Below are positions 14,250-38,726 of a stretch of DNA of 64,000 bases, piece after piece. The position numbers and the translations under genes are program-made. Position 1 is the stretch's first letter. Every line of letters begins with the position of its first letter. The stretch lies in the NCBI GenBank assembly GCA_019695185.1, contig JAIBAN010000036.1:1-64000 (forward strand). The letters are read 5' to 3'. The notes under the pieces were generated by a model. That model searched no databases. It was not told the DNA's origin and worked only from the letters and a program-made list of their open reading frames with translations. Origin of the DNA: Blastocatellia bacterium (lineage in GTDB: Bacteria; Acidobacteriota; Blastocatellia; Chloracidobacteriales; Chloracidobacteriaceae).

Positions 14250-14385
14250 GGAAAAAATCGGGCAGTGGACTGAGGGCTGAACCTAGTTCCAGGGCGGGTG
14301 GTGAGTTGGCGGGGCTTGAGGTCTGTTGTGAATGCCCAAATCAAATTGAACTGCCAGCCAAAGCAGGGAAAGGAAAAGGGAGGAA

Positions 14386-15312: not shown

Positions 15313-15353
15313 GTCGGACTTGGCGTCCAGGCTCCGATGTCCAACAGCCCCAG

Positions 15354-16700: not shown

Positions 16701-16717
16701 CCCTTCCTTCTTTTTTC

Positions 16718-17683: not shown

Positions 17684-17704
17684 GTCCTGCCCGAAGGAGT
17701 TTTT

Positions 17705-19003: not shown

Positions 19004-19006
19004 TTT

Positions 19007-19849
19007 ATGGCAAATATAATTCCCCGGATGGAATTTTTGGTTCAGAGTTTGTTCCGCAGCCAACGCCAGTGCCCGCATTGCGGGTCAGGCGAAACCAAGG
19101 TGCGGGCACGCAAGTATGTGACCATTCGCATTCGTGAATGTGTGACATGCGGGCTTTTTTTCACCGACCCGGTCTATGAAACCATGTTTGGTTCCACTTT
19201 TTATGATGTGTTGTATGTTGAGCACGACCTGACCACCGACCTGCCTCCGCCTGACCAGTTGGAAACCCTTAAACAAAAACGCTTTCAGGGTACCAATAAA
19301 TATTATGGAGTCCGGCTGGAACGCCTGCGGGATGCCCGCATCGGGACCACCATGGCGGAAATCGGCTCTTCCTGGGGATATTTTCTCTTTCAGGCCCAGC
19401 ATTACGGTTTTGAACCGACCGGGGTTGAAATCAGCCAGCCGCGCCGGGAATTTGGCCAAAAACATTTGGGCGTCAACATTGTGGACGGGACCGACAAACT
19501 TCCCAGCGAAGGGTTTGACCTGGTTTATACCTCGCATGTGTTGGAGCATTTTACCGACCTTTCCACCATTTTTCCGGAAATGCACAGGGTTCTGAAACCA
19601 CAGGGGAAACTGGTTCTGGAGGTGCCGCATTTTGCCTTTGCGACGCACCAAGCCGAGGTCCTGCAAATCATCGGAGCCGTTCACCCGCTCGGGTTCACCG
19701 CCGATTTCTTTAGCCGAAACCTGCCCCGCTACGGCTTTCGCATTCTCGATTTTTATCAATCCTGGGAACATTTCCCGACTCCCAAAGCTCCACAAGCCCA
19801 CTCAAACGTCGTGGCGCTGCTGGCCGAAAAAACGTCCCCGGCCTTCTAA
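19007..19849 (+). CDS. SAM-dependent methyltransferase with N-terminal zinc ribbon
   Basis: 280 residues. A four-cysteine ribbon (CPHCGSGETK, CVTCGLFF; residues about 23-48) precedes a class I methyltransferase fold: motif I TMAEIGSSWGYFLFQAQHYG, acidic GVEIS, and motif II FDLVYTSHVLEHFTDLSTIF. This domain layout is common among methyltransferases of O-antigen and exopolysaccharide clusters that modify sugars or cap chains. It follows the GT4 gene by 3 bases and precedes asnB by 21, so it is clearly in the same operon. Confidence 0.85.
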   Translation: MANIIPRMEFLVQSLFRSQRQCPHCGSGETKVRARKYVTIRIRECVTCGLFFTDPVYETMFGSTFYDVLYVEHDLTTDLPPPDQLETLKQKRFQGTNKYYGVRLERLRDARIGTTMAEIGSSWGYFLFQAQHYGFEPTGVEISQPRREFGQKHLGVNIVDGTDKLPSEGFDLVYTSHVLEHFTDLSTIFPEMHRVLKPQGKLVLEVPHFAFATHQAEVLQIIGAVHPLGFTADFFSRNLPRYGFRILDFYQSWEHFPTPKAPQAHSNVVALLAEKTSPAF

Positions 19850-19870
19850 TCCCTTCAGTTCAAGGCTTTT

Positions 19871-21622
19871 ATGTGTGGATTTATCGGCAGAATTCAGAAC
19901 GGTCCAGCCAATCGGCAGCGGCTGCCCTTGACGGCGGGATTGCCCCATCTGGCCCGCCGGGGGCCTGACTCAGCTCGGGTCTGGCAATCCAATGACGAGC
20001 GGGTTGAACTGTTGCATGCCCGGCTGGCCATCGTTGACACCGACAGTCGGGCGCATCAACCCTTTCGGGATGAAAACCTGGGGCTGACTGTGGTTTTCAA
20101 CGGGGAACTGTACAATTACCATGAATTGCGGTCCGAGTTGAACGGCTATGAATTTCGTACCACCTCCGATACCGAAGTCATTTTGGCCACTTATGCCTTG
20201 CAGGGAATCGAAGGATTTCGACGGTTTCGCGGCATGTTTTCACTTGCCTTGGCCGATGAAAAAAACGGCCAGGTCATTCTGGCCCGCGACCCGGTGGGAA
20301 AAAAACCTTTGTATCTGACCAATTGGAATGGCGACCGGCTCTTTGGTTCCTCGGTTTTTCCTTTGCTTGCCGCCCATAACCAGCCGGTTTCTTTGAATGT
20401 GGCCAGCGCTGCGTATTTTTGGGAAAAAGGATTTATTTATCCGGCGGAATCCGTGTTTGCTGATACCAAACCGCTCTTGCCGGGCCAAGTGCTCATACTG
20501 GATTGGAACGGGCGGGAGGTGGCCGCAGCGGATTGCACCCCCAGGAACACAGAACTATACCAAGGGGAATCCTGGAATGAGGTCGAGGAAAAAACCCGAC
20601 AGTTGTTGGAACAGGCCGTGGCCCGGCGGTTGACCAACAGTGTTCAGCCCACCGCATTGCTTTCAGGCGGGATTGATTCAACCGTGGTCACTAGGTTTGC
20701 CGAACAGATTTCCCGGCGGGAGGGGATGCCTCCCCTCCAGGCGCTTTCCCTGCGGTCTTTGGTCCCGTTGATGAATGACGATTTTTACAGCCGCTACGCC
20801 GCCCGCAAAATCGGAACCCGTCAGCAAATGGTGGGAATTTCTTTGCGCAATCCGGGCACGGCGGTAATACAGGCTTTTGCCCGGCAGGATGAACCGATTG
20901 CCGTTGCTTCTTATTTCATGCTGGCGCAACTGGTCCAGGCCGCTTCGGTTTATGGGAAAATTCTGTTGACCGGGGACGGGGGCGATGAAGTGTTCCTGGG
21001 GTACGGAAAGCCGGAGGATTGGAACTCCGCAACTCATGGCCCGACCTCGGTGCCGGGCGGGCCACCGCTGGTTCCCTGCGGGCCGGCGCTGCCAGGCTGG
21101 ATGAGTCCCTGGGCACAGGAAACGGTCACCAATACCCTGGTGGGCCATATGTTTGTCAAAACCGACCGGGCGGCTGCCGAACAAGGGGTTGAAATTCGCT
21201 GCCCGCTCTTGGACTGGGATGTCATGGCGTATATGCGGAGTCTTCCTTTTCCCCTGCTCACCGCGGGGAATCGTGCCAAGGCATTGCTTAAAGCCCAGTT
21301 GCCGGGGTGGCCTGGCTGGTTTCTGGAGCGACCCAAAATCGGCTTTGGCTATAACCTCAGGTGGCTATGGGCGGCCCGCCGGTTTGACGCTCTGCGCGAA
21401 AACATCGACCCGGAAGCCCAGCATCTGTTTGAAAGCCGATTGCCATCTGTTCTCATGAAGCCGGCCCGCCACTGGGCCACCAGGGATATTTTTAACCATT
21501 TTTCCACGGCGTGGAAGTTGCTTGCCTGGAGTTGTTTCCTCCAGAAGTACAAAACCGTTCACACGGGAGTGGCTTCCATCCCCGCAAAAACCTCAGTAGT
21601 CAGCAGAGGGTTGGTCCGTTGA
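19871..21622 (+). CDS. asnB: Asparagine synthase (glutamine-hydrolysing) type amidotransferase
   Basis: 583 residues. The N-terminal Ntn glutaminase begins MCGFIGRI with Cys2 as nucleophile, followed by RRGPDSARVW and VVFNGELYNYHEL. The ATP-pyrophosphatase synthetase domain has ALLSGGIDSTVVTRF (PP-loop about 262-272) and LTGDGGDEVFLGYGKPEDW. In exopolysaccharide loci such proteins often amidate sugar carboxylates rather than making free asparagine, which fits the uronate dehydrogenase upstream. A Pro/Gly-rich insert follows the GDEVFLGYG motif (SVPGGPPLVPCGPALPG, about 395-412) where AsnB normally has a helix. All glutaminase residues look intact, which argues against a lasso cyclase role. 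Confidence 0.86.
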   Translation: MCGFIGRIQNGPANRQRLPLTAGLPHLARRGPDSARVWQSNDERVELLHARLAIVDTDSRAHQPFRDENLGLTVVFNGELYNYHELRSELNGYEFRTTSDTEVILATYALQGIEGFRRFRGMFSLALADEKNGQVILARDPVGKKPLYLTNWNGDRLFGSSVFPLLAAHNQPVSLNVASAAYFWEKGFIYPAESVFADTKPLLPGQVLILDWNGREVAAADCTPRNTELYQGESWNEVEEKTRQLLEQAVARRLTNSVQPTALLSGGIDSTVVTRFAEQISRREGMPPLQALSLRSLVPLMNDDFYSRYAARKIGTRQQMVGISLRNPGTAVIQAFARQDEPIAVASYFMLAQLVQAASVYGKILLTGDGGDEVFLGYGKPEDWNSATHGPTSVPGGPPLVPCGPALPGWMSPWAQETVTNTLVGHMFVKTDRAAAEQGVEIRCPLLDWDVMAYMRSLPFPLLTAGNRAKALLKAQLPGWPGWFLERPKIGFGYNLRWLWAARRFDALRENIDPEAQHLFESRLPSVLMKPARHWATRDIFNHFSTAWKLLAWSCFLQKYKTVHTGVASIPAKTSVVSRGLVR

Positions 21623-22878
21623 CGCAAAACCTGCTTCCCAAGATTTGTATCGTGACTCCAGGATACCTTTCCCACACTCCCCGTGTGGTCAAGGAAGCCG
21701 ATGCCTTGGCGGCTGCCGGCTTTCGGGTGCATGTCGTTGGTACAGAAGGCAATCAGGAGTGGGCCAGGGAATATACCCGCAACGTCGTCAAGGGGAAGAG
21801 GTGGACTTATTCTGCCGTCAAGTGGTCGGAATCTGTTAAAGGCGAAAGCTGGCTGTTTCATAAATCCAGATTGCGCCACCGCTTGATGCAGGGTTTACCA
21901 CAAACCCTGCAAAGCTGGGGAAATCTGCCCGAAGTGGCGGAAGGGCGCATCTTTCCTGAGTTGGCCCGGTTGGCCTCAAACAATCAGGCGGACCTGTTTA
22001 TTGGCCACTATCCGGTTGGGTTGGCTGCCGCTGCCCAGGCCGCCAAACGGTGGGAGGCCAAACTGGGCTATGATGTTGAGGACCTGCATACCGAAGAACA
22101 GACGATGGACCCGGAAGGACTTCGTCAGAAAAACCGGATTGAATTGCTGGAACGGCGGTATCTCTCCCGCTGCACCCATGTTTCGGCGGTCTCGGAGCCG
22201 ATTGCGGCAGTCATGGTGCAAAAATACGGAATCACCCCGCCGGTAGTGATTCATAACGTTTTCCCCTGGTCGGAACAGGCTACGCTGGATGGTTTGGTGA
22301 AGGACCGGAAAGGTGAAAAAGTGTCACTGTATTGGTATTCTCAGACCATTGGGCCAGGTCGTGGCCTGGAGGAAGTCTTGTTGGCAGCCAATGCGGTACG
22401 GGAGGAAATCCAGTTCCACCTGCGAGGTGCAATCAGTGAAACCGACCGTGAATTTTTTTTGAAACTGGCACGGGAACACGGGCTTGGGCACAGTCTGTAT
22501 TTTCATCCACAGGTTCCGCCGGCTGAACTCCATTCCCGCGCCAGCGAGCACGACATTGGGCTGGCTTTGGAACAGACATTCCCTTTGGCCCGTGGAATGA
22601 CTGTCTCAAACAAGCTGTTTTCTTATTTACTGGCTGGTTTGGCGGTGGTTGCCACAGATGTTCCGGGGCAACGACACGTGTTGGAAACTACACCGGAAGT
22701 GGGCTTTCTGTATCCTCCCGGCGAGCATCAAAAACTGGCGGAGGTTCTGGTGAAGCTGGTCCGAAATCCGGGGCTGTTGGCAATCACAAAGCACGCTGCC
22801 CAACAGGCAGCCAACCGGCGGTGGAATTGGGAAATTGAACAGCAGAAGCTGGTCCAGGCCGTTTTCCAATTGTTCTGA
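21619..22878 (+). CDS. Glycosyltransferase (GT4-like)
   Basis: About 419 residues from TTG 21619, which overlaps the asnB stop as TTGA. The open frame extends upstream to 21511, but that part runs inside asnB. The N-terminal strand ICIVTPGYLSHTPRVVKEAD and later YDVEDLHTEEQTM, YLSRCTHVSAVSEPIAAVM and LGLALEQTFPLARGMTVSNKL are characteristic of a GT-B glycosyltransferase of the polysaccharide type. AGAGGG at 21605-21610 is a plausible ribosome site. No nucleotide-sugar specificity can be inferred. Confidence 0.8.
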   Translation: MTQNLLPKICIVTPGYLSHTPRVVKEADALAAAGFRVHVVGTEGNQEWAREYTRNVVKGKRWTYSAVKWSESVKGESWLFHKSRLRHRLMQGLPQTLQSWGNLPEVAEGRIFPELARLASNNQADLFIGHYPVGLAAAAQAAKRWEAKLGYDVEDLHTEEQTMDPEGLRQKNRIELLERRYLSRCTHVSAVSEPIAAVMVQKYGITPPVVIHNVFPWSEQATLDGLVKDRKGEKVSLYWYSQTIGPGRGLEEVLLAANAVREEIQFHLRGAISETDREFFLKLAREHGLGHSLYFHPQVPPAELHSRASEHDIGLALEQTFPLARGMTVSNKLFSYLLAGLAVVATDVPGQRHVLETTPEVGFLYPPGEHQKLAEVLVKLVRNPGLLAITKHAAQQAANRRWNWEIEQQKLVQAVFQLF

Positions 22879-22926
22879 TTTGACGTGCCTGAATGAAACC
22901 TTTGGACATAGTTTGGTAACACAAGT

Positions 22927-22954
22927 TCAAAACTCAAAACTCAAAACTCAAAAC
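22927..22954 (+). repeat. (TCAAAAC)x4 heptamer tandem repeat in the leader of a glycosyltransferase gene
   Basis: Four perfect copies of TCAAAAC (22927-22933, 34-40, 41-47, 48-54) end three bases before the ATG at 22958. The repeat occupies the exact position where a ribosome binding site should be, and no Shine-Dalgarno is visible. Other intergenic tandem repeats of 7, 9 or 14 bases occur in this window. Confidence 0.9.
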
Positions 22955-22957
22955 CTT

Positions 22958-23986
22958 ATGCGGATTCTGCTCTCGGTTGACCCGGAAATTCCGGTCCCTC
23001 CGAAACTGTACGGAGGGATAGAACGCATCGTCCATTCCCTCATCGAAGGGCTGGTCAAGCGTGGCCATCAGGTGGGCCTGTTGGCTCATCCGGAATCGGA
23101 AACTGCTGCGCAGGTCTTTTTCCCGTGGGAGGGAAAACATTCCAATCATCTGGCGGACACCATTCGCAATACCAGCCTGCTGTGGAGGGCTGTCAGGCAG
23201 TTCCGACCAGATGTGGTGCATAGTTTTTCGCGGCTTTGGTATTTGGCTCCCTTGCTGATAGGAAGCCTGCCCAAAGTGATGTCCTATCAGCGGCACCCTA
23301 ACCAGGTCACTGTTTCCTGGGCCGCCCGGCTGGGGGGGACCTCGTTACGGTTTACCGGGTGCAGCGAACATATCTGTGAGCGAGGCCGGCCCGCCGGTGG
23401 GACGTGGCTGCCCATTCATAATTTTGTGGACCTCAATACCTATACCTTTCAGGAAACGGTGGCACCCGATGCCCCTTTGGTTTTTTTAAGCCGGGTTGAG
23501 CGGATTAAAGGAGCACATACTGCGATTGCGGCGGCTTTGAAAACCAACCGAAGATTGATGATTGCCGGGAATCATGCCAACGAAGGCGATGAATTTCGCT
23601 ATTGGAAAGAGAAAGTCGAGCCACATCTGGGAAAAAATGGAATTGAATATGTAGGGCCGGTGAATGACGGGCAAAAAGACGAACTACTGGGAAAAGCCCT
23701 GGGAATGGTCGTTCCGATTGAATGGGATGAACCGTTTGGGATTGTCTTTGCAGAAGCATTGGCCTGTGGCACACCGGTGATTTCAAGTCCGCGCGGCGCG
23801 CTTCCGGAGATTGTCACGCACGGGGAAACGGGTTTTTTGTGCCGCACGTTGGATGAGATTTGTCAGGGCGTGGAAAGCCTTTCCGGTCTGCACCGGGGGG
23901 CCTGCCGCCAGAGGGCTGAGTTATGTTTTTCAGCACCGGTGGTTGTCAATCAATATGAGGCGTTGTACCAGCATCTGGTGGAGTGA
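22958..23986 (+). CDS. Glycosyltransferase family 4, last gene of the exopolysaccharide operon
   Basis: 342 residues from ATG 22958 (MRILLSVDPEIPVPPKLYGG). Compact GT-B enzyme: IERIVHSLIEGLVKRGHQVG, then RPDVVHSFSR, PLVFLSRVERIKGAHTAIAA, and the donor-site segment VPIEWDEPFGIVFAEALACG. Family members of this size transfer hexoses. It ends just before the terminator at 24015-24056, closing the operon. Its translation start is preceded by the heptamer repeat rather than a normal ribosome site. Confidence 0.88.
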   Translation: MRILLSVDPEIPVPPKLYGGIERIVHSLIEGLVKRGHQVGLLAHPESETAAQVFFPWEGKHSNHLADTIRNTSLLWRAVRQFRPDVVHSFSRLWYLAPLLIGSLPKVMSYQRHPNQVTVSWAARLGGTSLRFTGCSEHICERGRPAGGTWLPIHNFVDLNTYTFQETVAPDAPLVFLSRVERIKGAHTAIAAALKTNRRLMIAGNHANEGDEFRYWKEKVEPHLGKNGIEYVGPVNDGQKDELLGKALGMVVPIEWDEPFGIVFAEALACGTPVISSPRGALPEIVTHGETGFLCRTLDEICQGVESLSGLHRGACRQRAELCFSAPVVVNQYEALYQHLVE

Positions 23987-27260: not shown

Positions 27261-28259
27261 ATGCGAACCGTTATCCGGGTTACTTTTGTCACCTTATTGT
27301 GTTTGGTTTTGCTCGCGGGGTTGCTCCCCGGTCTGCTTTTGCCGGAATCCACCCGGTACCGGATGCAATCCCGTATTGCCCACCTGGAGCGCAAGCTGGC
27401 CCGCTGGGATAATGTTGAAGCCAAGCCCATGGTGATGAAAGGCAGGTTGAATGTGCCCGGAGCCAGTATTCAAGAGCGGTTTGGTGCTTCGGGGTTGGCG
27501 GTTCTGGCGGATAAACTGGGGAATTTCGAGGTTCCGCAAATGACGTGGTTCCCTGGTCGGGAATATGCCTTGGTGGTGACGGCTCCCGGTTGGCAACTGC
27601 GGGAGGTTCGGGTTTTTGCTCCCTGGTTTTATCCGGAAAAAGGGGTTTTTCAGTTGGAACCAATTTCCCTGGTTCCGGGAGAGGAACCCGACCTGTTGTC
27701 AGTGCCGGGGCTGGCAGCCGCCCGGAGGCTGCCGTGTGACCAGGTGAACGAACAATTTTATCGAAATCTTTATCAGGAAATCACCCAGGGGTTGACCAGT
27801 CATGCCGACAAAATTGAAGCCTTGAACGCCTTTGTTTTCGGCAAGCGGAAAAAGAAACAGAAGGTGACGTTCCCGGTTGAGACGGCGCGCACCATTTTGG
27901 AAAACCCCCGGCCCTTTTCCTATTCCTGCGGAGAACTGGCACTGGCATTGGCCACCCTGGCACGGGCGGGAGGGTACAACGTGCGGATGGTGACTTTGAT
28001 CAAGCTGGTTCCCGATGAGAGTCCCTATACCCATGTTGTGGTTGAGGTTTCCTATAATTATACCTGGCACTTGTATGACCCGACCTATGGGGCAAGCTAC
28101 CACGATGAAGCCGGAAACGCTCTCAGCTTGTGTGAGGTCCGCACCAATCCGGATGTAACGGATACGCCTTTCGCCTCATCTCAGGTGGCACCATTGTTTC
28201 CAACCTGGATCAAATTGGTTTATGACAGCGGAACCCATTTTCTGGTCTATGTCCGATAA
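27261..28259 (+). CDS. Membrane-anchored transglutaminase-like protein, copy 1
   Basis: 332 residues. N-terminal membrane helix (VTLLCLVLLAGLLPGLLLP), a beta-sandwich like a regulatory CNA-B/CarboxypepD domain (LNVPGASIQ, GLAVLADKLGNFEVPQ, about 60-135), then a transglutaminase/protease-like domain with FSYSCGELALALATLARAGG (Cys about 223), YTHVVVEVSY (His about 257) and WHLYDPTYG (Asp about 272). The Cys-His-Asp triad is intact. Likely a periplasmic thiol enzyme acting on peptide or glycan amides. The adjacent gene is a paralogue with the same layout, so this is a tandem duplication. Confidence 0.8.
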   Translation: MRTVIRVTFVTLLCLVLLAGLLPGLLLPESTRYRMQSRIAHLERKLARWDNVEAKPMVMKGRLNVPGASIQERFGASGLAVLADKLGNFEVPQMTWFPGREYALVVTAPGWQLREVRVFAPWFYPEKGVFQLEPISLVPGEEPDLLSVPGLAAARRLPCDQVNEQFYRNLYQEITQGLTSHADKIEALNAFVFGKRKKKQKVTFPVETARTILENPRPFSYSCGELALALATLARAGGYNVRMVTLIKLVPDESPYTHVVVEVSYNYTWHLYDPTYGASYHDEAGNALSLCEVRTNPDVTDTPFASSQVAPLFPTWIKLVYDSGTHFLVYVR

Positions 28260-28395: not shown

Positions 28396-29457
28396 ATGAA
28401 ATTCCGCCCGCATTTTTTTTGGTTTGTGCCATTGTGTCTGGTGATTGGGGTGGGATTGTTTTGGGGATTGCTCCCTGAATCAAGGCAGTACCGGCTGGCC
28501 CGAGCCATGAAAAAAGCTCAAACCAAAATCGCCGCCTTAACGGGGAAAAAATCGGAACTGGCTTCGATTTCCGGTTATATTGGCCGGCCCGGAGTGCTGA
28601 TTCAGGCTTTGGACTCACCTTCCGGATGGGCAGCCTGTTCCGATGCCACCGGAAAATTCACTTTAATAGAGGAATCATGCTATCCCGGTGCCGAAATCGA
28701 ATTGGTGATTCCCATTTCCAGTGAAATGTCACAAAAGGTGACCGTCACTTTGCCAAAAAAGGTTTCCCAGCCGGGGCTGTTTGAAATTGGCAGAATTCCC
28801 ATCGAAAGAGCCAAGACTGTTTCAACCTCATCAGTCTGGGGGCGAAATGCCGTCAGTCTGGTGGATTACGACTTGGTGAACGATACCTATTACCGAAATC
28901 TGTTTGCCAAAATTACTGAAGGGAAGAAGACCGACCAGGAAAAACTGACGGCCCTCAATTACTTTGTGGCGGCGAAACTCAATTTTGACGAGGCCACCGC
29001 CGAGTATCATTCACCACGGCAAATTCTGGAGCGCGGTTCCAAATATTGTGGACCACTCAGTCTGGCCATGGCCACTTTGTCGCGTGCCGGCGGGTACCCA
29101 ACCCGCATGCTCCATCTGCGAACCGGAGGACCGTTTCCCAACTTTCATGCGGTGGTTGAGATTTATTATGACCAAAGTTGGCATGTTTTCGATGCCACCT
29201 ACGGCATTACCTTTCTCCGCCCGGACGGCTCGGTGGCCAGCTATCTGGACTTGCGCCTGACTCCGGAGTTGGTCACCCCTGAAACCCTCAAGGCCATTGC
29301 CCCGCGAGCCCGGCGGAGCGGGTACGCCTGGGTTCCCAACGCTTCCAACTCAGTATTTGTCTTTTTGGTCGAACCCCGCGATTTTGACGGCATCAGCCAG
29401 TGGATGCCCAGCCTTTATTCTTCCGGGATGTTTCACGAGTTTTATTTCAGGCTCTGA
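28396..29457 (+). CDS. Membrane-anchored transglutaminase-like protein, copy 2
   Basis: 353 residues, same architecture as the upstream gene: membrane helix (FFWFVPLCLVIGVGLFWGLL), heptad-like basic stretch (RAMKKAQTKIAALTGKKSEL), beta domain (SISGYIGRPGVLIQALDSPS), and a catalytic domain with KYCGPLSLAMATLSRAGGYP (Cys about 218), FHAVVEIYYD (His about 251) and WHVFDATYG (Asp about 265). Shared motifs such as NLF/NLYxxIT, LNxFV and ATLxRAGGY show common descent, while the beta domains have diverged, which suggests different binding partners. The gene ends one base before the nucleotidyltransferase gene on the other strand. Confidence 0.8.
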   Translation: MKFRPHFFWFVPLCLVIGVGLFWGLLPESRQYRLARAMKKAQTKIAALTGKKSELASISGYIGRPGVLIQALDSPSGWAACSDATGKFTLIEESCYPGAEIELVIPISSEMSQKVTVTLPKKVSQPGLFEIGRIPIERAKTVSTSSVWGRNAVSLVDYDLVNDTYYRNLFAKITEGKKTDQEKLTALNYFVAAKLNFDEATAEYHSPRQILERGSKYCGPLSLAMATLSRAGGYPTRMLHLRTGGPFPNFHAVVEIYYDQSWHVFDATYGITFLRPDGSVASYLDLRLTPELVTPETLKAIAPRARRSGYAWVPNASNSVFVFLVEPRDFDGISQWMPSLYSSGMFHEFYFRL

Positions 29458-29458
29458 C

Positions 29459-30574
29459 TCAGGTTGGTGAGTTTTTGGGGGTCAGTCTTCTGTGTAGGGC
29501 ATCAGTTGCCTGGCGGGACAAAAAGCGAAAACCAGTAGGGAAGGTATCGTGCAGACAAGCGGCAAAGAGAGTGGTTCCAAGATGGTGGAGCGGGCGACGG
29601 GGAGTGTCTTTGGGGAGGTTAAGTGCCAGTTTTTCAAGGGCCCACCCGCGCAGTGGCGAGCCCGGAAGGAATTGCGCCAGGTAGGGCGGAAGTGCGAACT
29701 GGAGTCGTTGTTGACATTGGGTCAGGGCAAATTGCAACGCACTGGTGACCCGGTATTGGTGGGCGCGCCGCACCACCATTTCCAGGTCAAGCGACGGGTG
29801 ACGGGTAAGAAAAAAACGCAGATCAAGCAGCCAAGATAACCGGGCAACCCGGTGCCCTGCGGCATGAACGGCCAGGAACAGAAATTCATCTTCCGGGGCG
29901 GGAATCAAAGTTTTAAGACTTCCCACGGTCTGATATGGAATGGCTCGTTGCATGACATCCAGGGCTGGCAAAGGGGTTCCAAACCCTTCGTGGGCATTGA
30001 AATGCAGTTCCACCGGGACCGACTTGGGGCGTTCAAAACCAAGTTCATGGAGGCTTTTCTGGGCTCCTTGCGGGAGGTTTTGTGGAGCAGTACCGGAAAT
30101 CCGATATCCCAAATCCGAGAGGCAGGCTGAGGCTTGGGGAAATTGTTCCGGGGCAATTAAAAAATCGAGGTCAGTGGAAATCCGGGTGGTTGGTACAGCA
30201 TAAATACGTTCAGCCAGCACTGGACCTTTCAGACAAACCACCTGGATGCCGGCCTTCTCGAATGCCGTCATGAGCTCAAACAGAGCTTCCTGAAGGCGCA
30301 ACCACAAGAGTTTACATCGGTTTTCCTGCTGCTGAAGGTATTGTTGCGTCAGTGGTTGCAATCGGATTCCCTGGGCTTCGGCCAGACTGGGCAGCATCCC
30401 TTCCAGATTGTGCAACACAGCACAAATCAAGAGAGGTTTCCATTCAGTATCGGTCAGCCTGAGAAACCAGTCACGCTCCTCATCCTCCAGGTTCTTTCGG
30501 AATAGGGTTTCGAGTTTTTGTTCGTATTCCCGAAATCGGGAGGAGGCTGCAAATTCGGCTTGTGCGTTCAGCAT
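29459..30574 (-). CDS. Nucleotidyltransferase family protein (NTP_transf_5 type)
   Basis: 371 residues. The nucleotidyltransferase core is KAGIQVVCLKGPVLAERIY followed by RISTDLDFLIAPEQ (metal-binding DxD at about 135-137). The helical C-terminal part has LFLAVHAAGHRVARLSWLLD, the usual HxxxH-like segment of this family. Such proteins are recurrent partners of lasso-peptide and HPr-rel-A loci, where they may modify a peptide or kinase product; the substrate is not established. It is the last gene of the minus-strand peptide-modification operon, 110 bases after the PqqD gene. Confidence 0.78.
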   Translation of the reverse strand: MLNAQAEFAASSRFREYEQKLETLFRKNLEDEERDWFLRLTDTEWKPLLICAVLHNLEGMLPSLAEAQGIRLQPLTQQYLQQQENRCKLLWLRLQEALFELMTAFEKAGIQVVCLKGPVLAERIYAVPTTRISTDLDFLIAPEQFPQASACLSDLGYRISGTAPQNLPQGAQKSLHELGFERPKSVPVELHFNAHEGFGTPLPALDVMQRAIPYQTVGSLKTLIPAPEDEFLFLAVHAAGHRVARLSWLLDLRFFLTRHPSLDLEMVVRRAHQYRVTSALQFALTQCQQRLQFALPPYLAQFLPGSPLRGWALEKLALNLPKDTPRRPLHHLGTTLFAACLHDTFPTGFRFLSRQATDALHRRLTPKNSPT

Positions 30575-30684: not shown

Positions 30685-30951
30685 TTACTGCCGTTGAACC
30701 AGTTCTGCCCGCTCAAGTTTTTCAAGAAAAGAAATCACTGCCCCCTGCAATCGTTCTTCACTTGCATCATATTCAGCCAGCAAGACTGCCACAATCTCCG
30801 GGACTGACTTTTGTTTCAGCAAAGATTTCCAAATCACTACGCCAGTGCTGTTGATGGTGTAATACCGTTTGGTCGTGAGGTGAAGCAGCACCATCGAGTC
30901 ATCAATCTCTGTGTGGATGACTGACGGATGAATGCTGTAGGAACCGGTCAT
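30685..30951 (-). CDS. PqqD-like peptide chaperone (RiPP recognition element, lasso B1 type)
   Basis: 88 residues, complete. The sequence SYSIHPSVIHTEIDDSMVLL, then TTKRYYTINSTGVVIWKSL and the helical tail VPEIVAVLLAEYD...LEKLERAELV, is the PqqD/RRE winged-helix pattern. These proteins bind the leader segment of a precursor peptide and present it to maturation enzymes. The start ATG (30951) overlaps the radical SAM stop as ATGA, with GGAGG upstream. Its partner is most likely the 48-residue peptide at 32977-33123, which has an F-x2-P-x-L leader motif. Confidence 0.85.
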   Translation of the reverse strand: MTGSYSIHPSVIHTEIDDSMVLLHLTTKRYYTINSTGVVIWKSLLKQKSVPEIVAVLLAEYDASEERLQGAVISFLEKLERAELVQRQ

Positions 30952-31937
30952 GAAGGAGAACCTCCGGATTGAAGGGAGTTGGGATTGGGTTGCCAAGTGG
31001 TTTTGCCAAAACAAGAGAGGCAATAATGACAGGGGAATTCGGCCTCGGGCTGGTTCTGCCTGAGGGCTGCGGTACGTCTGTCATTCTGCTCGGAAACGAG
31101 CTGAAGAAAATGCTGATAGGCCTCGGGAAATCGGACCTGATGCAGATTGGCGGCCACTTCAGGAGCTTGGCCGGCATGGCGAAAATCCGAAAGCTGGCAG
31201 CACAAGGTCATTTCACCATAACAGTTGATGTCAATGGTGGAGCCATGCAGGACATCGCAGGGCGGTTCAGGACCGGGATTGTATCTGGAAGCCGAAAAGG
31301 AAACCTCCATCTTCAGGATTTCATTTAATTGGGCGGCTTCGATTTCAACCGCCTGGCGGAGGTGCGGGGAAAGCGATAGTTCCGCATCCAGGCTCATGGA
31401 GGTTGGCAGCAAGTGGCTGAAGCGGACCCGTTGGGCTCCCAACCGGGCTCCCAAAACTGCCACCTTTTCCATGTCATGCCGGTTGTGCGAAGTAACCACC
31501 ATCTGAAAACTGAAGGGAAAGCGTTGCAATCGGCACAAACTGACAGCACTCATCAGCTTTTGAAAGGAACCTTTGCCTCGCACCTGGTCATGGGCTTCGG
31601 CATCAGCGGCGTCAATACTCAGGGAAACCATATGCAGCGCTGATCTGGTGGCGGTCAGATGGGGTACCAAACGGGGGAAATGCCAACCGTTGGTGATGAG
31701 GGCGAATTGGTATCCCAACTGTTCAGTCAGGCGCAAAGTTTCACCCAGATGCGGATACAGTGAAATTTCCCCGCCAGTGAAGGTGATTCGGTCAGCTCCA
31801 CATTCTTTTGCATCCTGTAACACCTGTAACAGTAAGGCATAATCCAGATGCTGTGCGGCGGAAACCTTCAGACAGTAGGCACAGTCAAGGTTGCACAAAT
31901 TGGTCAGTTCGACGGTGAGCTTGGTGAGGTGCTGCAT
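30948..31937 (-). CDS. Radical SAM enzyme with SPASM-like C-terminus
   Basis: 329 residues from ATG 31937, where the family N-terminus begins (MQHLTKLTVELTNLCNLDC). The [4Fe-4S]-SAM motif CxxxCxxC is C15, C19, C22; TFTGGEISLYPHL is the GGE motif. The C-terminus has CDVLHGSTIDINCYGEMTLC and CHYCLSCFGK, a SPASM-type set of cysteines for auxiliary clusters, typical of peptide-modifying radical SAM enzymes (PqqE/AlbA-like). The gene overlaps the kinase gene by 34 bases and the pqqD-like gene by 4, so it is translated in a tight operon. It would modify the adjacent peptide, perhaps by thioether or C-C bond formation; the reaction is unknown. Confidence 0.88.
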   Translation of the reverse strand: MQHLTKLTVELTNLCNLDCAYCLKVSAAQHLDYALLLQVLQDAKECGADRITFTGGEISLYPHLGETLRLTEQLGYQFALITNGWHFPRLVPHLTATRSALHMVSLSIDAADAEAHDQVRGKGSFQKLMSAVSLCRLQRFPFSFQMVVTSHNRHDMEKVAVLGARLGAQRVRFSHLLPTSMSLDAELSLSPHLRQAVEIEAAQLNEILKMEVSFSASRYNPGPEPPCDVLHGSTIDINCYGEMTLCCQLSDFRHAGQAPEVAANLHQVRFPEAYQHFLQLVSEQNDRRTAALRQNQPEAEFPCHYCLSCFGKTTWQPNPNSLQSGGSPS

Positions 31938-32980
31938 GGGTCTGAAACTGTCCGAACGGCTACACCCTGGCGAAGCAGATGTTCGGGGTCGAGTAAAGAT
32001 GCCAGCCGCGCCCGATCCTGAAGGACATCGGGGCAAAGTTGGAGTTCGAAACCATAACACGAACTGGCTAACGTACGAAAGACGGCCAGGTGTGCCGGTG
32101 AAGTTTCCCGGTCCAGCATCAGCCACAGACTGGATGGAATCAACCGGGTGAGGATGGCCTCAGGTGAAAGTGGTAAAATGCGAGTGTGCTGGCCGGTTGT
32201 TCGGGTCAAAGCAAGCAAAAACCTGATGCGGGTATTGGACTGGGATTGTTCAGGCCAAAGCTGAGACGGATTGAACTGGATTTTGCCTTTTACGGTTTGG
32301 TGGGCGTGCCCGGAAATCGGGGTTCCGTACCAGTGTAATGTTTCCGGGCGTAAAGCAAAAAATCTGCGGAAGGAACGAGCCAGGAAACCAGGAGGTTGAT
32401 GCGACTCTTGTGGGAGGGAGCTGACCAGCACCGAATCATCACTGACAAAATTCCAGCCTTGTTCGATTAAACCAAAAACAGTACTGCTTTTGCCCGCCGT
32501 GGAGTGACCCAGTAACAAGAACCCATTTCCCTGGCGGTCTACACACCCTGCATGGCTTTCAAACCAACCTAACCGGCGCAGGCACCACATCAGAATCAGC
32601 CGGAGAAATTGTTCCGGAATCTGAACCGTGAGGGAATGATGGTCAAATGCTAAGAGAATGTCAGTGGAAGAACCCAAGGAGCGGAGTTGGCATAAGATAT
32701 GCCAGTTGGCAAAAGAAAAAAAATAAACTGCCCCTTTTTTGACACACGAATAGCCATTCCACTCAAAAATGATGGAATGGCTATCCGGGTGAAACTCAAA
32801 ATCTGTGGGAAAACCGACTGTAAATTGTAAATTAGGTTGTGACTGAACGGCTTTTTCAAACCCGCCGTCAATGAGGGCCTGTTCAAGATCTTCCGCCAAG
32901 GATGAACCGGAACTGCAAACGGCAAACGTCAGTGACCGATTGTCTTCGGCGAAAAGCATCCAGTGGCAGTTTTTCCTCAA
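31904..32980 (-). CDS. HprK-like peptide/protein kinase (HPr-rel-A or lasso-kinase family)
   Basis: 358 residues from TTG 32980, whose codon overlaps the precursor stop (TTGA); ATG 32959 is an alternative. The P-loop is LLGHSTAGKSSTVFGL (about 155-170), in the order found in HPr kinase/phosphorylase, and GWNFVSDDSVLVSSL follows as the Walker B-like acidic pair. The N-terminal 150 residues and the C-terminal region do not look like canonical HprK. Related HprK-like kinases of lasso clusters (paeninodin type) phosphorylate a C-terminal Ser of the precursor, and HprK-related kinases with PqqD occur in exosortase loci. The only Ser/Thr near the C-terminus of the neighbouring peptide is Thr47. Confidence 0.78.
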   Translation of the reverse strand: MRKNCHWMLFAEDNRSLTFAVCSSGSSLAEDLEQALIDGGFEKAVQSQPNLQFTVGFPTDFEFHPDSHSIIFEWNGYSCVKKGAVYFFSFANWHILCQLRSLGSSTDILLAFDHHSLTVQIPEQFLRLILMWCLRRLGWFESHAGCVDRQGNGFLLLGHSTAGKSSTVFGLIEQGWNFVSDDSVLVSSLPQESHQPPGFLARSFRRFFALRPETLHWYGTPISGHAHQTVKGKIQFNPSQLWPEQSQSNTRIRFLLALTRTTGQHTRILPLSPEAILTRLIPSSLWLMLDRETSPAHLAVFRTLASSCYGFELQLCPDVLQDRARLASLLDPEHLLRQGVAVRTVSDPCSTSPSSPSN

Positions 32981-33123
32981 AAAGTTCCGATAAAGGCTTC
33001 TTGGGCAAATCCTTGAATTTGGCGTTCCATTTCATCGAACTCACGTAATTCAGGTTCGACAAACACTTTTTTCTCCTTCGGAAGCGTTTCGATTGAATGA
33101 CCGTTCTGGAATTCGTTGGACAT
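32977..33123 (-). CDS. Candidate RiPP precursor peptide (48 residues)
   Basis: 48 residues (MSNEFQNGHSIETLPKEKKV... ending GFAQEAFIGTF), with a strong SD AGGAG (33131-33135) seven bases before ATG 33123. F21-V-E-P24-E-L26 followed at +4 by D30 resembles the Y-x2-P-x-L-x3-G leader motif that PqqD/B1 proteins recognise in lasso precursors (Phe for Tyr, Asp for Gly). The C-terminal part is rich in Gly, Phe and Gln. A lasso core would need Gly/Ala/Ser/Cys at 1 and Asp/Glu at 7-9; starting at G38, the only acidic residue is at position 5. It lies between the B2-like gene (10 bases) and the kinase gene (4-base overlap). It may instead be a small carrier protein. Confidence 0.72.
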   Translation of the reverse strand: MSNEFQNGHSIETLPKEKKVFVEPELREFDEMERQIQGFAQEAFIGTF

Positions 33124-33133
33124 GGCTTGGCTC

Positions 33134-33619
33134 CTACTCCAAGTGGTTTGAGAGATGGTTTCTCTTTCTGGTGTACCGATATAAAACCTTGAAAACTTGA
33201 GCTGGATTGGCCGGTTCGGCAATTGGCTCGCCGTTGACTTCAATCCAACTATGACTTGAAAGTTGCCCTTGATGTAAATGAACGCCGATCACCAGGGTTG
33301 TGGTTGTAAACTCTCTTGGTAAAAAGCCGTACAGAAGTACCGAACGCAAAAGGCACTTCCCAATTCCGTAATTCGGTAGAAATTGGATCACCTGGGAAAA
33401 CAAGGCGGCGTGCTCTGATGCAGTAAATCTTTCGGTGGACAAAAAGAACGGCGCTATATTTACATAATCAAGCAATTTAAGCAACCTTGGCAGTGAAAAT
33501 ACCTTGATCAAGAATGGCACCCATAAGAAAAAGAGCCCTGCCTGAGCTGCCAGATTTGCTTTGTAAAACATTTTCCGAAAGAACTGCCAGGATGTCCCAG
33601 GTTTTTCACCAACCGCCAT
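33134..33619 (-). CDS. Lasso-peptide B2-like protein (transglutaminase-fold leader peptidase)
   Basis: 161 residues. The C-terminal half carries GIGKCLLRSVLLYGFLP (Cys89), TLVIGVHLHQGQLSSHSWIE (His123) and GEPIAEPANP, the pattern of B2/McjB-type leader peptidases. The third catalytic residue, normally Asp, may be Glu131 or Glu135. The N-terminal half (about 20-60) is helical with hydrophobic stretches (AAQAGLFFLWVPFLI) that are common in B2 proteins. It is the first gene of the operon and would cleave the leader of the adjacent peptide. The ATG at 33619 has no good ribosome site. Confidence 0.85.
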   Translation of the reverse strand: MAVGEKPGTSWQFFRKMFYKANLAAQAGLFFLWVPFLIKVFSLPRLLKLLDYVNIAPFFLSTERFTASEHAALFSQVIQFLPNYGIGKCLLRSVLLYGFLPREFTTTTLVIGVHLHQGQLSSHSWIEVNGEPIAEPANPAQVFKVLYRYTRKRNHLSNHLE

Positions 33620-33856: not shown

Positions 33857-35206
33857 TTACAGATTAATGTCCCAAATCATGGAAAAGGAACCGGTCACAT
33901 GCTGGCTCCAATCCGAAAGCGGCAGGGGCAATCGGACCGCCAACAGGGTGATATCATCGCGTTGTGGTTCAATACCTTGAAATTGATGGAGTTCATCCAG
34001 CAAAGGGGTTTTCTGACGGGCCAAAGGCTTGTCGGAAATTTTACTGAGCAGCGAGCGCAATCGTTTGCTGCCAAACCGTTCCCCCTGTTCGTTACATTGG
34101 TCGGCAAAGCCATCGGTTGACAAAAAAAGGACTGTGCCTTCGCTGAATTCGATCACACAGTTGGTAAACTTACGGATTTCATTTTTCTTCACCCCGCCAA
34201 CGGTTTTCCGGTCGCCTTTCACTTCTTCCAGCATGGGGGCACCCTCCGGCATTGGTTTCAGAACCAGCAGGGGGCGACGGGCTCCTGCAAAAGTCAGTCG
34301 GTAGCCCTCAATACAGACCAGCCCGATATCCATTCCATCGTTGGTTCCCGTACCTCCATTGGTTTGGCCGAGGATAGTCTGAACTCCGGCATGGAGCAGC
34401 TCAAGAATTTGGGCCGGGTCGTAAATGTTTTTTTCACCGATAATCTGATTGAGCAGGGTGTTGCCAATCATGGACATGAACGCGCCTGGGACTCCATGCC
34501 CGGTACAATCGGCAACCACCAGAAAAACCCTGGTTACCTGGTCAGCGTGGGTGACATACACCCAATAGAAATCTCCTGATACAATGTCCTTGGGTTGAAA
34601 AACCAAAAAATAATCGCCCAACAGGGTTTCGAGCAGGGGGCCTTGCGGGAGCATGGCATTTTGAATCCGGTTCGCATAGTGAATGCTGTCGAGAATCTGA
34701 CGGTTTTTCTCCTCGATATCCTCTTTTTGTTTGACAATTTTTCCCAAGGTTTCAGTCAGGGTGTCATGAAGGCGTTTTTTTTCAAGGCAATTCCATACCC
34801 GCGCCTTGAGCAAGGCCGGGTCATAGGGCCGGGTCAGGTAATCGTCGGCCCCCATTTCGATACAGCGTACGACACTCCCGGTTTCGTCAAGACTGGAAAT
34901 CATAATGACTGGCAGATGCAAAAACTCAGTCCGGCTTTTGATGATTTCCAAAACCTGAAATCCGTCCAGTTCCGGCATCATGAGGTCCAGCAACAGCACA
35001 TCAAACGGTTCGGCCAACAACAAGTCCAATGCCTGTTTGCCGTTTTCCACCGTGCGAACTTCGTATCCTTCTTTTCTGAAAACCTGAGAAAGGACCATGC
35101 AGTTCAGCTTGTTGTCATCGGCAATCAACAATTTTCCCAGGGGCGGTATGTGCGTGGAATTGGTTTGTGGAAGCGGAAACGTGTGAGGCATGGTTTGGAA
35201 CGCCAA
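33857..35206 (-). CDS. Receiver domain-SpoIIE/PP2C phosphatase (RsbU-like response regulator)
   Basis: 449 residues. N-terminal receiver: GKLLIADDNKLNCMVL, phosphorylatable Asp74 in DVLLLDLMMPELDGF, and VIMISSLDETGS. A short coiled-coil linker (GKIVKQKEDIEEKNRQILD) leads to the phosphatase core: QPKDIVSGDFYWVYV, VVADCTGHGVPGAFMSMIGN and GTVLFLSTDGFADQ, with metal-binding aspartates present. Such proteins dephosphorylate anti-anti-sigma or partner-switching proteins in response to a kinase. No RsbW/RsbV partners are adjacent. ATG 35191 is an alternative start. Confidence 0.92.
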   Translation of the reverse strand: MAFQTMPHTFPLPQTNSTHIPPLGKLLIADDNKLNCMVLSQVFRKEGYEVRTVENGKQALDLLLAEPFDVLLLDLMMPELDGFQVLEIIKSRTEFLHLPVIMISSLDETGSVVRCIEMGADDYLTRPYDPALLKARVWNCLEKKRLHDTLTETLGKIVKQKEDIEEKNRQILDSIHYANRIQNAMLPQGPLLETLLGDYFLVFQPKDIVSGDFYWVYVTHADQVTRVFLVVADCTGHGVPGAFMSMIGNTLLNQIIGEKNIYDPAQILELLHAGVQTILGQTNGGTGTNDGMDIGLVCIEGYRLTFAGARRPLLVLKPMPEGAPMLEEVKGDRKTVGGVKKNEIRKFTNCVIEFSEGTVLFLSTDGFADQCNEQGERFGSKRLRSLLSKISDKPLARQKTPLLDELHQFQGIEPQRDDITLLAVRLPLPLSDWSQHVTGSFSMIWDINL

Positions 35207-36413: not shown

Positions 36414-37448
36414 TCAGTTTCCTTGAGGTGTGGAGGCGTCACGTTCCGCCAGCCAGGCCACGGTTTTCGGCCAGACAATGCCAAGGGCCTTGGGGCCGAT
36501 TGACACTCCGTGGTGTCCGCCCTTGACCCGCAATTCGGTTTTGTCGCTGCTTCCAATGAGTTTCAAGGCAATTTCGGCTGATTTGGGGGGCACGATGTCA
36601 TCATGTTCAGCCAGAATATTGAGCACGGGGCTGGTAATGTTTTTGAGCCGGACTGCCTGCCCGCCCAGTTTGAAACGGTTCTTTTTGAGGAGGTTTTTTT
36701 GATAACAGTCTTTGATGAATGTGCGAAAGGTTTCGCCAGCCACGGGAACCGCATCGTTCACCCAATAATCAAACGCCATAAAGGTCTGGACGAATTCCTC
36801 GTTGTCCATATTTTCAAGCAGGCTGGTGTACTTGGTAATGTTTTTGGTGGGTTTGAGCATCATGAAAGTGCTTTTGAGCACTTCCACCGGGGCATTCCCG
36901 TGGGAATCAACAAAGGCATCCACATCAAAATAATCAGGGCGGGCCCACTGGCTGAGGAGCGAGTCGTTTTCAAAATCAACCGGGGTCGCCAGTAAAATCA
37001 GATTTTTGACTGATTCCGGATAAAGGGCCGCATACATCAGGGCCATTGTCCCACCCATGCAATATCCCAGCAGCGAAACCTGTTCCGAGCCCGAATGACG
37101 GCTAACCTTCCGAACAAGATTGGGCAGGTAGCGATTGATATGGTCCTCCAGCGTGACTTCACAATCGGCATCATCCGGCACTCCCCAATCAACCATATAA
37201 ACCTGGAACCCCTGCTCCACAAGGTAGGAAACAAAACTTTTGCCGGGCATCAAATCCAGAATGTAATACTTGTTGATGAGAGAATTGACGATGACGAGCG
37301 GGGTTTGAAATTTGGGTTTGGTTTTTGATTTGTAATGGAGAACCCGCAATTTGTTTTCCCGGTAAATCACCCGCGAAGGGGTTGGGGCAATCCGGGGAGG
37401 CTTGTTCATTTTCGTGAGCAATTCAGAAAATTTGACGAAATCAAGCAT
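36414..37448 (-). CDS. phaC: Class III-type poly(R)-hydroxyalkanoate synthase PhaC
   Basis: 344 residues, the size of class III PhaC. The nucleophile elbow is LLGYCMGGTMALMY with Cys130 (G-x-C-x-G-G). The Asp is in LAEHDDIVPPKSAE and the His in VKGGHHGVSIG. KTKPKFQTPLVIVNSLINKY, FVSYLVEQGFQVYMVDWGVP and FENDSLLSQWARPDYFDVDA follow the family. It polymerises hydroxyacyl-CoA on the PHA granule. Class III enzymes need PhaE, and no full-length PhaE (about 40 kDa) is visible; the 135-residue protein at 38723 could take its place. It lies downstream of a PhaC-like paralogue, with a 5x9-base repeat in its leader. Confidence 0.9.
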   Translation of the reverse strand: MLDFVKFSELLTKMNKPPRIAPTPSRVIYRENKLRVLHYKSKTKPKFQTPLVIVNSLINKYYILDLMPGKSFVSYLVEQGFQVYMVDWGVPDDADCEVTLEDHINRYLPNLVRKVSRHSGSEQVSLLGYCMGGTMALMYAALYPESVKNLILLATPVDFENDSLLSQWARPDYFDVDAFVDSHGNAPVEVLKSTFMMLKPTKNITKYTSLLENMDNEEFVQTFMAFDYWVNDAVPVAGETFRTFIKDCYQKNLLKKNRFKLGGQAVRLKNITSPVLNILAEHDDIVPPKSAEIALKLIGSSDKTELRVKGGHHGVSIGPKALGIVWPKTVAWLAERDASTPQGN

Positions 37449-37459
37449 AGGCCGAAACA

Positions 37460-37504
37460 GTCTTGGGAGTCTTGGGAGTCTTGGGAGTCTTGGGAGTCCT
37501 GGGA
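37460..37504 (+). repeat. (GTCTTGGGA)x5 nonamer tandem repeat in the phaC leader
   Basis: Five consecutive copies of GTCTTGGGA, the last with one change (GTCCTGGGA), starting 12 bases upstream of the phaC ATG (37448) and ending 22 bases after the stop of the paralogue (37527). On the minus strand it reads TCCCAAGAC repeated, which contains no ribosome-binding sequence. Copy-number change here would alter the leader of phaC. Confidence 0.9.
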
Positions 37505-37526
37505 GTTTGGTGAAACTCCAAAGCCC

Positions 37527-38726
37527 TTAAACGGATGAACGAAGCCATTGCAAAAGCTGTGGCCAAACTTGATTTTTAGCACCACCACTGACCGAAAGCG
37601 AGAGATGTCCATAGGGAAAGAGAGCTTGATGATACGCATCTGCCGGAATGTGTTGCGCCAGCGCCGCCGCCGCCGCAAACGGCACCACTTGGTCCTTTTC
37701 ACCAATGACATTGAGGACCGGGCAGGTGATGGAATCCAGGCGAACCCGCCGGCTCCCGATTTTCAGCCGGTTCTGAAAAAGCTGGTTTTTTTGGTAGGTC
37801 GAGGCCACAAACTGCCGGTAAAAGGTGCCCGGAATATCCACTGAATCATTGAACCAGCATTCCAAAGCCAATAGAACCTTGAGATTTTCAGCCGAATCGG
37901 CATTCAGCCATAAATTCCAGGGCAGGGTGGCATTGCTCACCGGTTTCATGCCTCGAAACGACGCCAGGACAAATTCTGAAGGCATATTCCCCAACGTCGC
38001 AATAAAGTCATCAATATCGAGTTGTTCCGGGTGGAGCCATTCACTCACAAAGCCTGCCTGGGAAAAATCCACCGGCGTGGCAAACAACGCCAGTCGCCGG
38101 ACCAGGGCCGGGTTCAAGGCCGAGCAAATCAGTGACAAGACCCCTCCCATTGAATAACCCAACAGGTCCACCTGCTGCCGCTTGGTGCGGGCGCAAACTT
38201 CGTGCAAAACCTGGGGGAGATAGGACAGCACCAGGGTGTCAAAAGTTATCTGGGAATCAGTTTCGTCAATTTCCCCCCAATCCACTACAAAAACCTCGAT
38301 TCCATTTTGGGTCAGGAATTCAACCAGACTGCGCCCCGGTGCCAAATCAAGCAGGTACCAGCGATTGACCAGCGATGTCACAATGACCAGCGGATAGGAG
38401 GGTTTTGCCAAACGGGCCGGGCGGAAGTGCCGTAACCGCATTTTCCCAAGTTCCAACGCAATAGTGTGTGCCGTCGGTTTGAGGTCAAGGCAGGCAGCCA
38501 GATTCCGGGAGGTTTCCCGGCACAGGGCTTCCGGAAGTGACGGAACCCCCGTCAGACGCTGATTGACGCGCCGGAATTCAGCATAAACGGGAAGCAGGTG
38601 CTGTATCCAGGAGCGTTGCGCAGAAAGCAAAAGCGGATTCCGCATCCATTGCTGGAAGGCGGCATCCGCGTGCCATTGCCAGATTTCAAACGCTTCACGG
38701 GTGAAGGTTGCCAGGTCGGTTTTCAT
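37527..38726 (-). CDS. PhaC-family paralogue with Ser in place of the nucleophilic Cys
   Basis: 399 residues. Same alpha/beta fold as the phaC neighbour: LVIVTSLVNRWYLLDLAPGR, EFLTQNGIEVFVVDWGEIDE, FATPVDFSQAGFVSEWLHPE and VLNVIGEKDQVVPFAAAAAL with YGHLSLSV for the His. The elbow is LLGYSMGGVLSLICS, so Ser192 replaces the catalytic Cys of PHA synthases. Such a change usually strongly reduces polymerase activity, so this protein may be a hydrolase/depolymerase, a chain-transfer enzyme or a non-catalytic partner. It is about 50 residues longer at the N-terminus than class III PhaC. It overlaps the upstream granule-protein gene (ATGA). Confidence 0.85.
   Translation of the reverse strand: MKTDLATFTREAFEIWQWHADAAFQQWMRNPLLLSAQRSWIQHLLPVYAEFRRVNQRLTGVPSLPEALCRETSRNLAACLDLKPTAHTIALELGKMRLRHFRPARLAKPSYPLVIVTSLVNRWYLLDLAPGRSLVEFLTQNGIEVFVVDWGEIDETDSQITFDTLVLSYLPQVLHEVCARTKRQQVDLLGYSMGGVLSLICSALNPALVRRLALFATPVDFSQAGFVSEWLHPEQLDIDDFIATLGNMPSEFVLASFRGMKPVSNATLPWNLWLNADSAENLKVLLALECWFNDSVDIPGTFYRQFVASTYQKNQLFQNRLKIGSRRVRLDSITCPVLNVIGEKDQVVPFAAAAALAQHIPADAYHQALFPYGHLSLSVSGGAKNQVWPQLLQWLRSSV

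Follow-up and report, generated by a model that had tools for sequence, protein, structure and literature searches.

The nearest described system to the operon reported here is that of the linear polyphosphorylated peptides (LPP) of Bacillota, which has an RRE, an HprK kinase and an NTP transferase, and no cyclase (Popov et al. 2026, PMC13381572). LPP are multiply phosphorylated on one Ser, the kinase LppK acting on core S3 and an S3T variant being inactive; strains deleted for the NTP transferase showed no difference (PMC13381572). The main text of that paper contains the term "radical SAM" 0 times. A homologous NTP transferase from the pseudomycoidin system has been reported to add a hexose to phospho-Ser (PMC9266682). 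Among phosphorylated lasso peptides, the kinase BsfK phosphorylates core Ser3 and also accepts Thr (PMC10368454). The statement of an earlier note on the locus described here, that known HprK-like lasso kinases use a C-terminal Ser, is incomplete, since both BsfK and LppK use core Ser3.

The locus lies in a window of 64,000 nucleotides, this being the whole stretch of DNA that was analysed. Its operon has the order B2 peptidase, precursor, HprK-like kinase, radical SAM enzyme, PqqD-type RRE and NTP_transf_5, and comprises the following features:

33134..33619, minus strand: lasso-type B2 leader peptidase, transglutaminase-like (NF033537 and PF13471)
33131..33135, minus strand: AGGAG ribosome-binding site of the precursor gene (sequence reading)
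32977..33123, minus strand: gene of the 48-aa precursor peptide, from ATG at 33123 to the stop codon at 32977-32979 (orthologues and dN/dS)
33013..33123, minus strand: predicted leader, residues 1-37 (lasso register of PMC10368454 laid on the precursor family; predicted cleavage)
32980..33012, minus strand: predicted core GFAQEAFIGTF, residues 38-48 (register and core alignment)
32983..32985, minus strand: Thr47 codon (translation and core alignment)
31904..32980, minus strand: HprK-like kinase (PF07475, TIGR00679 partial), start TTG 32980 or ATG 32959
30948..31937, minus strand: radical SAM enzyme (PF04055; CxxxCxxC and conserved C-terminal cysteines)
30685..30951, minus strand: PqqD-type RRE (B1) (PF05402; start placed by alignment)
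29459..30574, minus strand: NTP_transf_5 nucleotidyltransferase (PF14907, 149.5 bits; same gene in relatives)

The 48-aa minus-strand ORF is real and conserved. Translation of the minus strand from 33123 to 32977 gives MSNEFQNGHSIETLPKEKKVFVEPELREFDEMERQIQGFAQEAFIGTF followed by a stop codon, and confirms what had been read before, namely the motif F21-x2-P24-x-L26-x3-D30 and S2, S10, T13 and T47 as the only Ser/Thr residues. The AGGAG Shine-Dalgarno sequence is placed 7 nt ahead of the ATG and shares bases with the B2 stop codon. The precursor profile matched its own genome with E = 4.8e-23 and six Chloracidobacterium-type genomes with E values from 2e-30 to 4e-32; 18 columns are invariant in the 7-sequence alignment, and dN/dS over six orthologues is far below 1, indicating that the ORF is under purifying selection. 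ORFs of 48 aa are common, and no family model of NCBIfam or Pfam matches this precursor, which could speak for a chance ORF; conservation, selection and synteny contradict this, and we regard the idea as refuted for practical purposes. The Chloracidobacterium sequence from which product masses would derive is GLRVLEAFTASFIAP.

The B2 peptidase scored 42.9 bits against NF033537 (cut-off 33) and is the sole B2 match in the genome, with Cys89 and His123 conserved in 22/22 sequences. The kinase could start at TTG 32980, which overlaps the precursor stop by TTGA, or at an in-frame ATG 7 codons on (32959); its alignment fits either start, orthologous kinases begin near the aligned ATG 32959, and in the six orthologues a gap of 11-77 nt separates the precursor stop from the kinase ORF. 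It had been proposed from the 4-base overlap that peptide and kinase are made in similar amounts, but as the overlap is not conserved and the kinase start is uncertain, nothing follows about relative amounts. Residues H143, G158, K164, S165, D181 and D182 match the BsfK catalytic set. All of these except S165 are kept in 32/33 family members and are among those found important in BsfK (PMC10368454). Where BsfK has G166, the window kinase has Thr. The structural model (pLDDT 85.5) matched HprK and PEPCK folds with modest TM-scores. Judged by these alignments, the kinase of the operon has intact catalytic residues. In one Chloracidobacterium-type locus (L043, 7593-8582, genome G005) the kinase is split over two ORFs, possibly by a frameshift or a sequencing error.

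What most sets the operon apart from lasso systems is its radical SAM enzyme, which was not considered in the earlier comparison with lasso kinases. The enzyme carries both cysteine signatures of RiPP radical SAM maturases, CxxxCxxC and auxiliary-cluster cysteines: Cys228, 247, 304 and 307 do not vary among 28 sequences, a pattern suggestive of an auxiliary cluster, and the model (pLDDT 87) matched BlsE, SuiB, viperin, SkfB and PqqE. The RRE gene starts with an ATG at 30951 that lies across the stop codon of the radical SAM gene; the nearest solved relatives of the RRE are the lasso RREs TbiB1 and TfuB1, and its score is below both lasso PqqD cut-offs.

Chloracidobacterium has related operons, as do other Acidobacteriota, mainly Blastocatellia/Pyrinomonadaceae, and members of the order to which Candidatus Brocadia (Planctomycetota) belongs. 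All six genes stand on one strand at 13/45 tabulated loci (the window, six Chloracidobacterium-type and six Brocadiales-type), in two gene orders. The six Chloracidobacterium-type genomes, which belong to the same family as the window, keep its order B2-precursor-kinase-radical SAM-RRE-NTP transferase; the operon is absent from G004, a genome of the same genus as these six. The Brocadiales-type order is precursor-kinase-radical SAM-RRE-B2-NTP transferase, and thus B2 is linked there too. The precursors fall into type I (window, Chloracidobacterium, G001 and L108), type II (Pyrinomonadaceae and relatives) and type III (Brocadiales). At 17 type II loci NTP_transf_5, precursor, kinase, radical SAM and RRE genes share one strand, with the B2 gene on the opposite strand and usually kilobases off (12 loci); this B2 gene may not belong to the system. 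The kinase gene directly follows the precursor in nearly all loci showing both.

The radical SAM protein was matched in 31/58 relative genomes at E ≤ 1e-10, the operon occurring in the closer ones only, and in 7/396 genomes of the phylum sample at E ≤ 1e-40; the precursor profile had matches in 9/162 genomes of the class (E ≤ 0.01), including one weak match. A second contig scan returned 41 loci, of which 28 (L082-L109) carry close relatives and come from Pyrinomonadaceae, other Acidobacteriota and Candidatus Brocadia pituitae; in the phylum of the latter 4/294 sampled genomes matched, and in its order 11/62. A radical SAM alignment worked as query of the genome contigs, and a single-sequence kinase query of them gave no matches. 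Ten loci (L019, L050-L058) with a distant radical SAM subfamily, approximately 30% identical, were set aside: L050-L058 showed no kinase, RRE or B2 and a single weak NTP5 match on the opposite strand, and L019 the radical SAM match alone. Duplicates were dropped (L082-L084 and L089 equal L045, L047, L046 and L048), the 45-locus table also leaves out L085, L110-L112 and L050-L058, L145 has no row, and the weak matches L113-L122 of the second scan were unannotated. Several loci have peculiarities of their own. Genome G619 holds two radical SAM and RRE copies (L130 and L131), one without kinase, B2 or NTP transferase nearby; L049, L105 and L144 each have two precursor genes with differing cores; and in the type II loci L086, L087, L094 and L104 a protein of approximately 290 aa with a signal-like start is encoded upstream of the precursor. 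In L087 this protein has weak secretin N0/FecR-like matches, and an O-methyltransferase gene precedes the NTP transferase.

Lasso precursors carry Tyr(-17), Pro(-14) and Leu(-12) with Thr or Ile at -2 (PMC10368454). Laid on this register, the leader of the window precursor, FVEPELREFDEMERQIQ, has F21 at -17, P24 at -14, L26 at -12, I36 at -2 and Q37 at -1. Among 33 precursors of the family, which were hand-picked from pattern matches with unrelated ORFs carrying the pattern omitted, Phe occupies -17 in 33/33 and the -2 residue is Thr in 23/33 and Ile in 10/33. Compared with the lasso leader Y/WxxPx[L...] at -17 to -12 with Thr or Ile at -2, spacing and -2 residue agree in 33/33, but Phe replaces Tyr/Trp at -17 in all. 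The search pattern that yielded these sequences included P-x-hydrophobic and did not include the -2 position; the pattern used for the 45-locus table does require T/I at -2 and hence is no test of that residue. The count takes in L103 as its only Brocadiales member, its register set on the second of two motif copies; L100, and ten Brocadiales precursors, added later, also fit the register by eye. L080 is uncounted, and its candidate peptide (FEEPSI, a long tail, no T/I at -2) misfits the register. In the Brocadiales leaders of L103, L128, L129, L131 and L139-L144 the motif stands twice in tandem, as F[AT][EN]PKLTF[IV]EPKLTK[HQ]G.

These comparisons support the view that the peptide is a precursor whose leader carries an RRE motif. 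The earlier note had read that motif as deviating from Y-x2-P-x-L-x3-G at two positions; F21, P24, L26 and D30 are indeed present, but F21 is no oddity, as Phe(-17) is the rule in the family. The orthologue check proposed there gave P-x-[L/V/I/M] in 33/33 precursors, a weak result because P-x-hydrophobic was part of the search pattern, and a Ser/Thr within the last ten residues in 33/33, equally weak because Ser/Thr are common. As the -2 residue is Thr or Ile in 33/33, which is the best evidence for the site, cleavage is predicted between Q37 and G38. In BsfA, Ile(-2) matters for both cleavage and phosphorylation and the YxxPxL residues are dispensable for phosphorylation (PMC10368454), so the leader motif need not guide the kinase. 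A candidate Tyr of the RRE contacting Thr(-2) was dropped, its placement being uncertain.

The predicted cores of the family are very short (6-15 aa; SFFGTF is an example) and, within a genus, strongly conserved. A set of 17 distinct type I and III cores could be aligned on the motif [FL]-x-[GSAN]-x-[FI]; this set retains one of the identical L139/L143, merges identical Chloracidobacterium cores and the two copies of G001, and omits type II. The window sequence FIGTF resembles FFGTF and FFGSF of Brocadiales. T47 had been pointed out as the only phospho-acceptor of the putative core, and it is the only hydroxyl residue of the predicted core; by this alignment it lies in a C-terminal motif shared across phyla. 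Its position holds Ser/Thr in 12/17 cores and Gln, Ala, Ile, Pro or Val in 5/17, where a hydroxyl is found at 46 or 49 instead. A hydroxyl at 46, 47 or 49 is thus present in 17/17 cores, compared with a shuffled mean of 8.4 (0 of 20000 shuffles), a result that is supportive and not proof, because the choice of positions was made with the data in view and the sequences are relatives of one another. The C-terminal motif is missing from type II cores (FFQxxxSGATN); of 20 distinct ones, 15 carry Ser at core 7 and 12 carry Thr at core 10. Across the whole family no hydroxyl position is conserved throughout. T47 is a fair candidate phospho-site and its phosphorylation is plausible from the alignment; taken alone, the assignment of the phosphate to this residue has about an even chance of being right.

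On the gene, operon, conservation, leader register and kinase and RRE families established by computation we base a proposal whose chemical steps, step order, cleavage site and phospho-site are inferred: the ORF is probably the precursor of a linear, ribosomally made and modified peptide. The PqqD-type RRE would bind the leader at F(-17)-x2-P(-14)-x-L(-12) and present the precursor to three enzymes: radical SAM enzyme, kinase and B2. The radical SAM enzyme would alter the core at a carbon centre, with a conserved Phe (F44/F48) or its vicinity as the most likely place. The hydroxyl beside the conserved C-terminal Phe would be phosphorylated by the HprK-like kinase; in the window core this could only be T47. 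NTP_transf_5 would then decorate that phosphate. Finally, B2 would cut between Q37 and G38, leaving an 11-residue peptide derived from GFAQEAFIGTF. Phosphorylation followed by decoration near the C-terminus is proposed by analogy with the LPP and pseudomycoidin systems. For the radical SAM step a triceptide-like Phe-x-x cyclophane is disfavoured, as the third residue of the F44 motif is Gly46 and a Gly in that place has no beta carbon.

One point against this pathway is that the hydroxyl position is not fixed in the cores, whereas BsfK and LppK are position-strict. The kinase could instead act on another protein or on a leader hydroxyl (S2, S10 or T13), leaving most of the modification of the peptide to the radical SAM enzyme. 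The five of 17 cores with a non-hydroxyl residue in the place of T47 favour this, as do the rejection of Thr by LppK at its site and the fact that core position 3, where BsfK acts, is occupied by Ala in the window and, in most type II cores, by Gln. BsfK does accept Thr, however, all 17 aligned cores have a hydroxyl no more than two residues away from the conserved Phe/Ile48, and the kinase gene comes directly after the precursor at nearly all loci with both. We hold a kinase acting away from T47 to be the less probable case, albeit one to be taken seriously. An RRE, a radical SAM enzyme and a peptidase are also a toolkit of the cofactor type, and the core might be a scaffold for a small molecule or redox cofactor as in the PQQ and mycofactocin pathways. 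Besides the toolkit itself, PqqE among the radical SAM fold matches and the shortness and within-genus conservation of the cores are in line with such a product. Both B2 and the kinase are lasso-type, however, and the conserved core residues are Phe and not the Glu-Tyr pair of PqqA, which makes a cofactor improbable.

A lasso peptide would need a cyclase encoded elsewhere in the genome to close a macrolactam from G38. B1, B2, kinase and NTP transferase are the helper set of paeninodin-type clusters, the pair of RRE (B1) and B2 peptidase that marks lasso systems is present with NF033537 over its cut-off, the predicted core starts with Gly, and the genome has AsnB-like proteins. Yet a four-sequence AsnB profile found no Asn-synthetase homologue in any locus, and the cut-off of the NF033535 cyclase model was passed in 0/22 genomes; three genomes (G526, G770 and G009) carry the operon with no NF033535 match at E ≤ 0.001. 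Of these, G526 (Ca. Brocadia pituitae, listed as a complete genome) and G770 have the whole operon and zero NF033535 match, the PF00733 matches of G526 being weak (best 1.6e-5). As no control genome passed the 525-bit cut-off of NF033535 either, a divergent cyclase may exist where AsnB-like genes occur. Moreover, in the 17 type I/III cores an acidic residue is at 5, 6 or 10, or absent, and never at 7-9; 10/17 have no Asp/Glu, and one core has only 6 aa. Absence of a cyclase is likely from these searches, and with neither a cyclase match above the cut-off nor ring-closing acids, the evidence to date excludes a lasso product; the chance that a distant cyclase rescues it is in our estimate very slight. 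The earlier note is thus right in what it observed and about half right in its interpretation: its lasso frame and its premise of a C-terminal Ser are best given up. The AsnB protein of the window itself (19871-21622, plus strand) was rejected as a cyclase: it begins MCGF and sits among glycosyltransferases, in a polysaccharide gene cluster at 12927-23986, and its Asn_synthase domain match is split in two.

Other features surround the operon. Two tandem Transglut_core genes (27261-28259 and 28396-29457, plus strand) are convergent with it and were not seen in related loci. Directly upstream of B2 on the minus strand lies a gene (33857-35206) whose product resembles a response regulator ending in a phosphatase of the SpoIIE/PP2C type; neither this neighbouring regulator nor the transglutaminase genes had relatives among the related loci scanned. 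A short tandem repeat at 37400-37540, translated SWESWESWE / QDSQDSQDS, sits between two genes resembling polyhydroxyalkanoate synthases.

The peptide group looks undescribed, no paper on this gene set having been found in a literature search limited to open-licence papers. The wider proposal is of a new RiPP class across Acidobacteriota and Planctomycetota, with linear peptides of 6-15 residues, Phe(-17) leaders, and a radical SAM modification at the Phe pair followed by phosphorylation, with NTP transferase decoration alongside; we consider the case for it evenly balanced. If true, it would be the first radical SAM and HprK-kinase chemistry on one peptide, as far as our searches show. The operon shows the lasso toolkit of RRE, B2, kinase and NTP transferase put to use without a lasso cyclase, and with a radical SAM enzyme, in Gram-negative phyla. 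The system offers a defined precursor, a predicted core and a single candidate phospho-site, T47.

Compared with known systems, SynChlorMet cassettes combine HprK-like, PqqD-like and radical SAM proteins, as the present operon does. Membership was rejected, the models ScmC, ScmD, ScmE and ScmF scoring far below their cut-offs (19.3/125, 31.4/100, 69.6/400 and 72/400 bits). The PQQ and mycofactocin pathways share a PqqD-type RRE and a radical SAM enzyme whose fold belongs to the PqqE/SkfB/SuiB group, but the present operon has in addition a kinase, B2 and an NTP transferase, and reached no PqqE or mycofactocin radical SAM equivalog cut-off. With the paeninodin-like or BsfA-type phosphorylated lasso peptides it has B1, B2, kinase and NTP transferase in common, as well as the -17/-14/-12 register and an Ile(-2) as in Bradymonadales precursors; unlike them it has no cyclase and no conserved ring-closing Asp/Glu, carries Phe for Tyr/Trp(-17), and includes a radical SAM enzyme. 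The LPP operons are like it in having a discrete lasso-type RRE, an HprK-like kinase, an NTP transferase and a lasso-like leader motif, and no macrolactam cyclase, the product being inferred to be linear and phosphorylated. LPP use a SipW-like signal peptidase (LppS) and an MsbA-like exporter and are phosphorylated at core Ser3; none of the six operon genes here is SipW-like, and the LPP leader YxxPxVLxHQxIxFETxxS differs from the present one with its Phe(-17). For its part, the present operon has a B2-type peptidase and the radical SAM enzyme. The best reading of the system is a cyclase-less relative of the linear polyphosphorylated peptides with an added radical SAM step.
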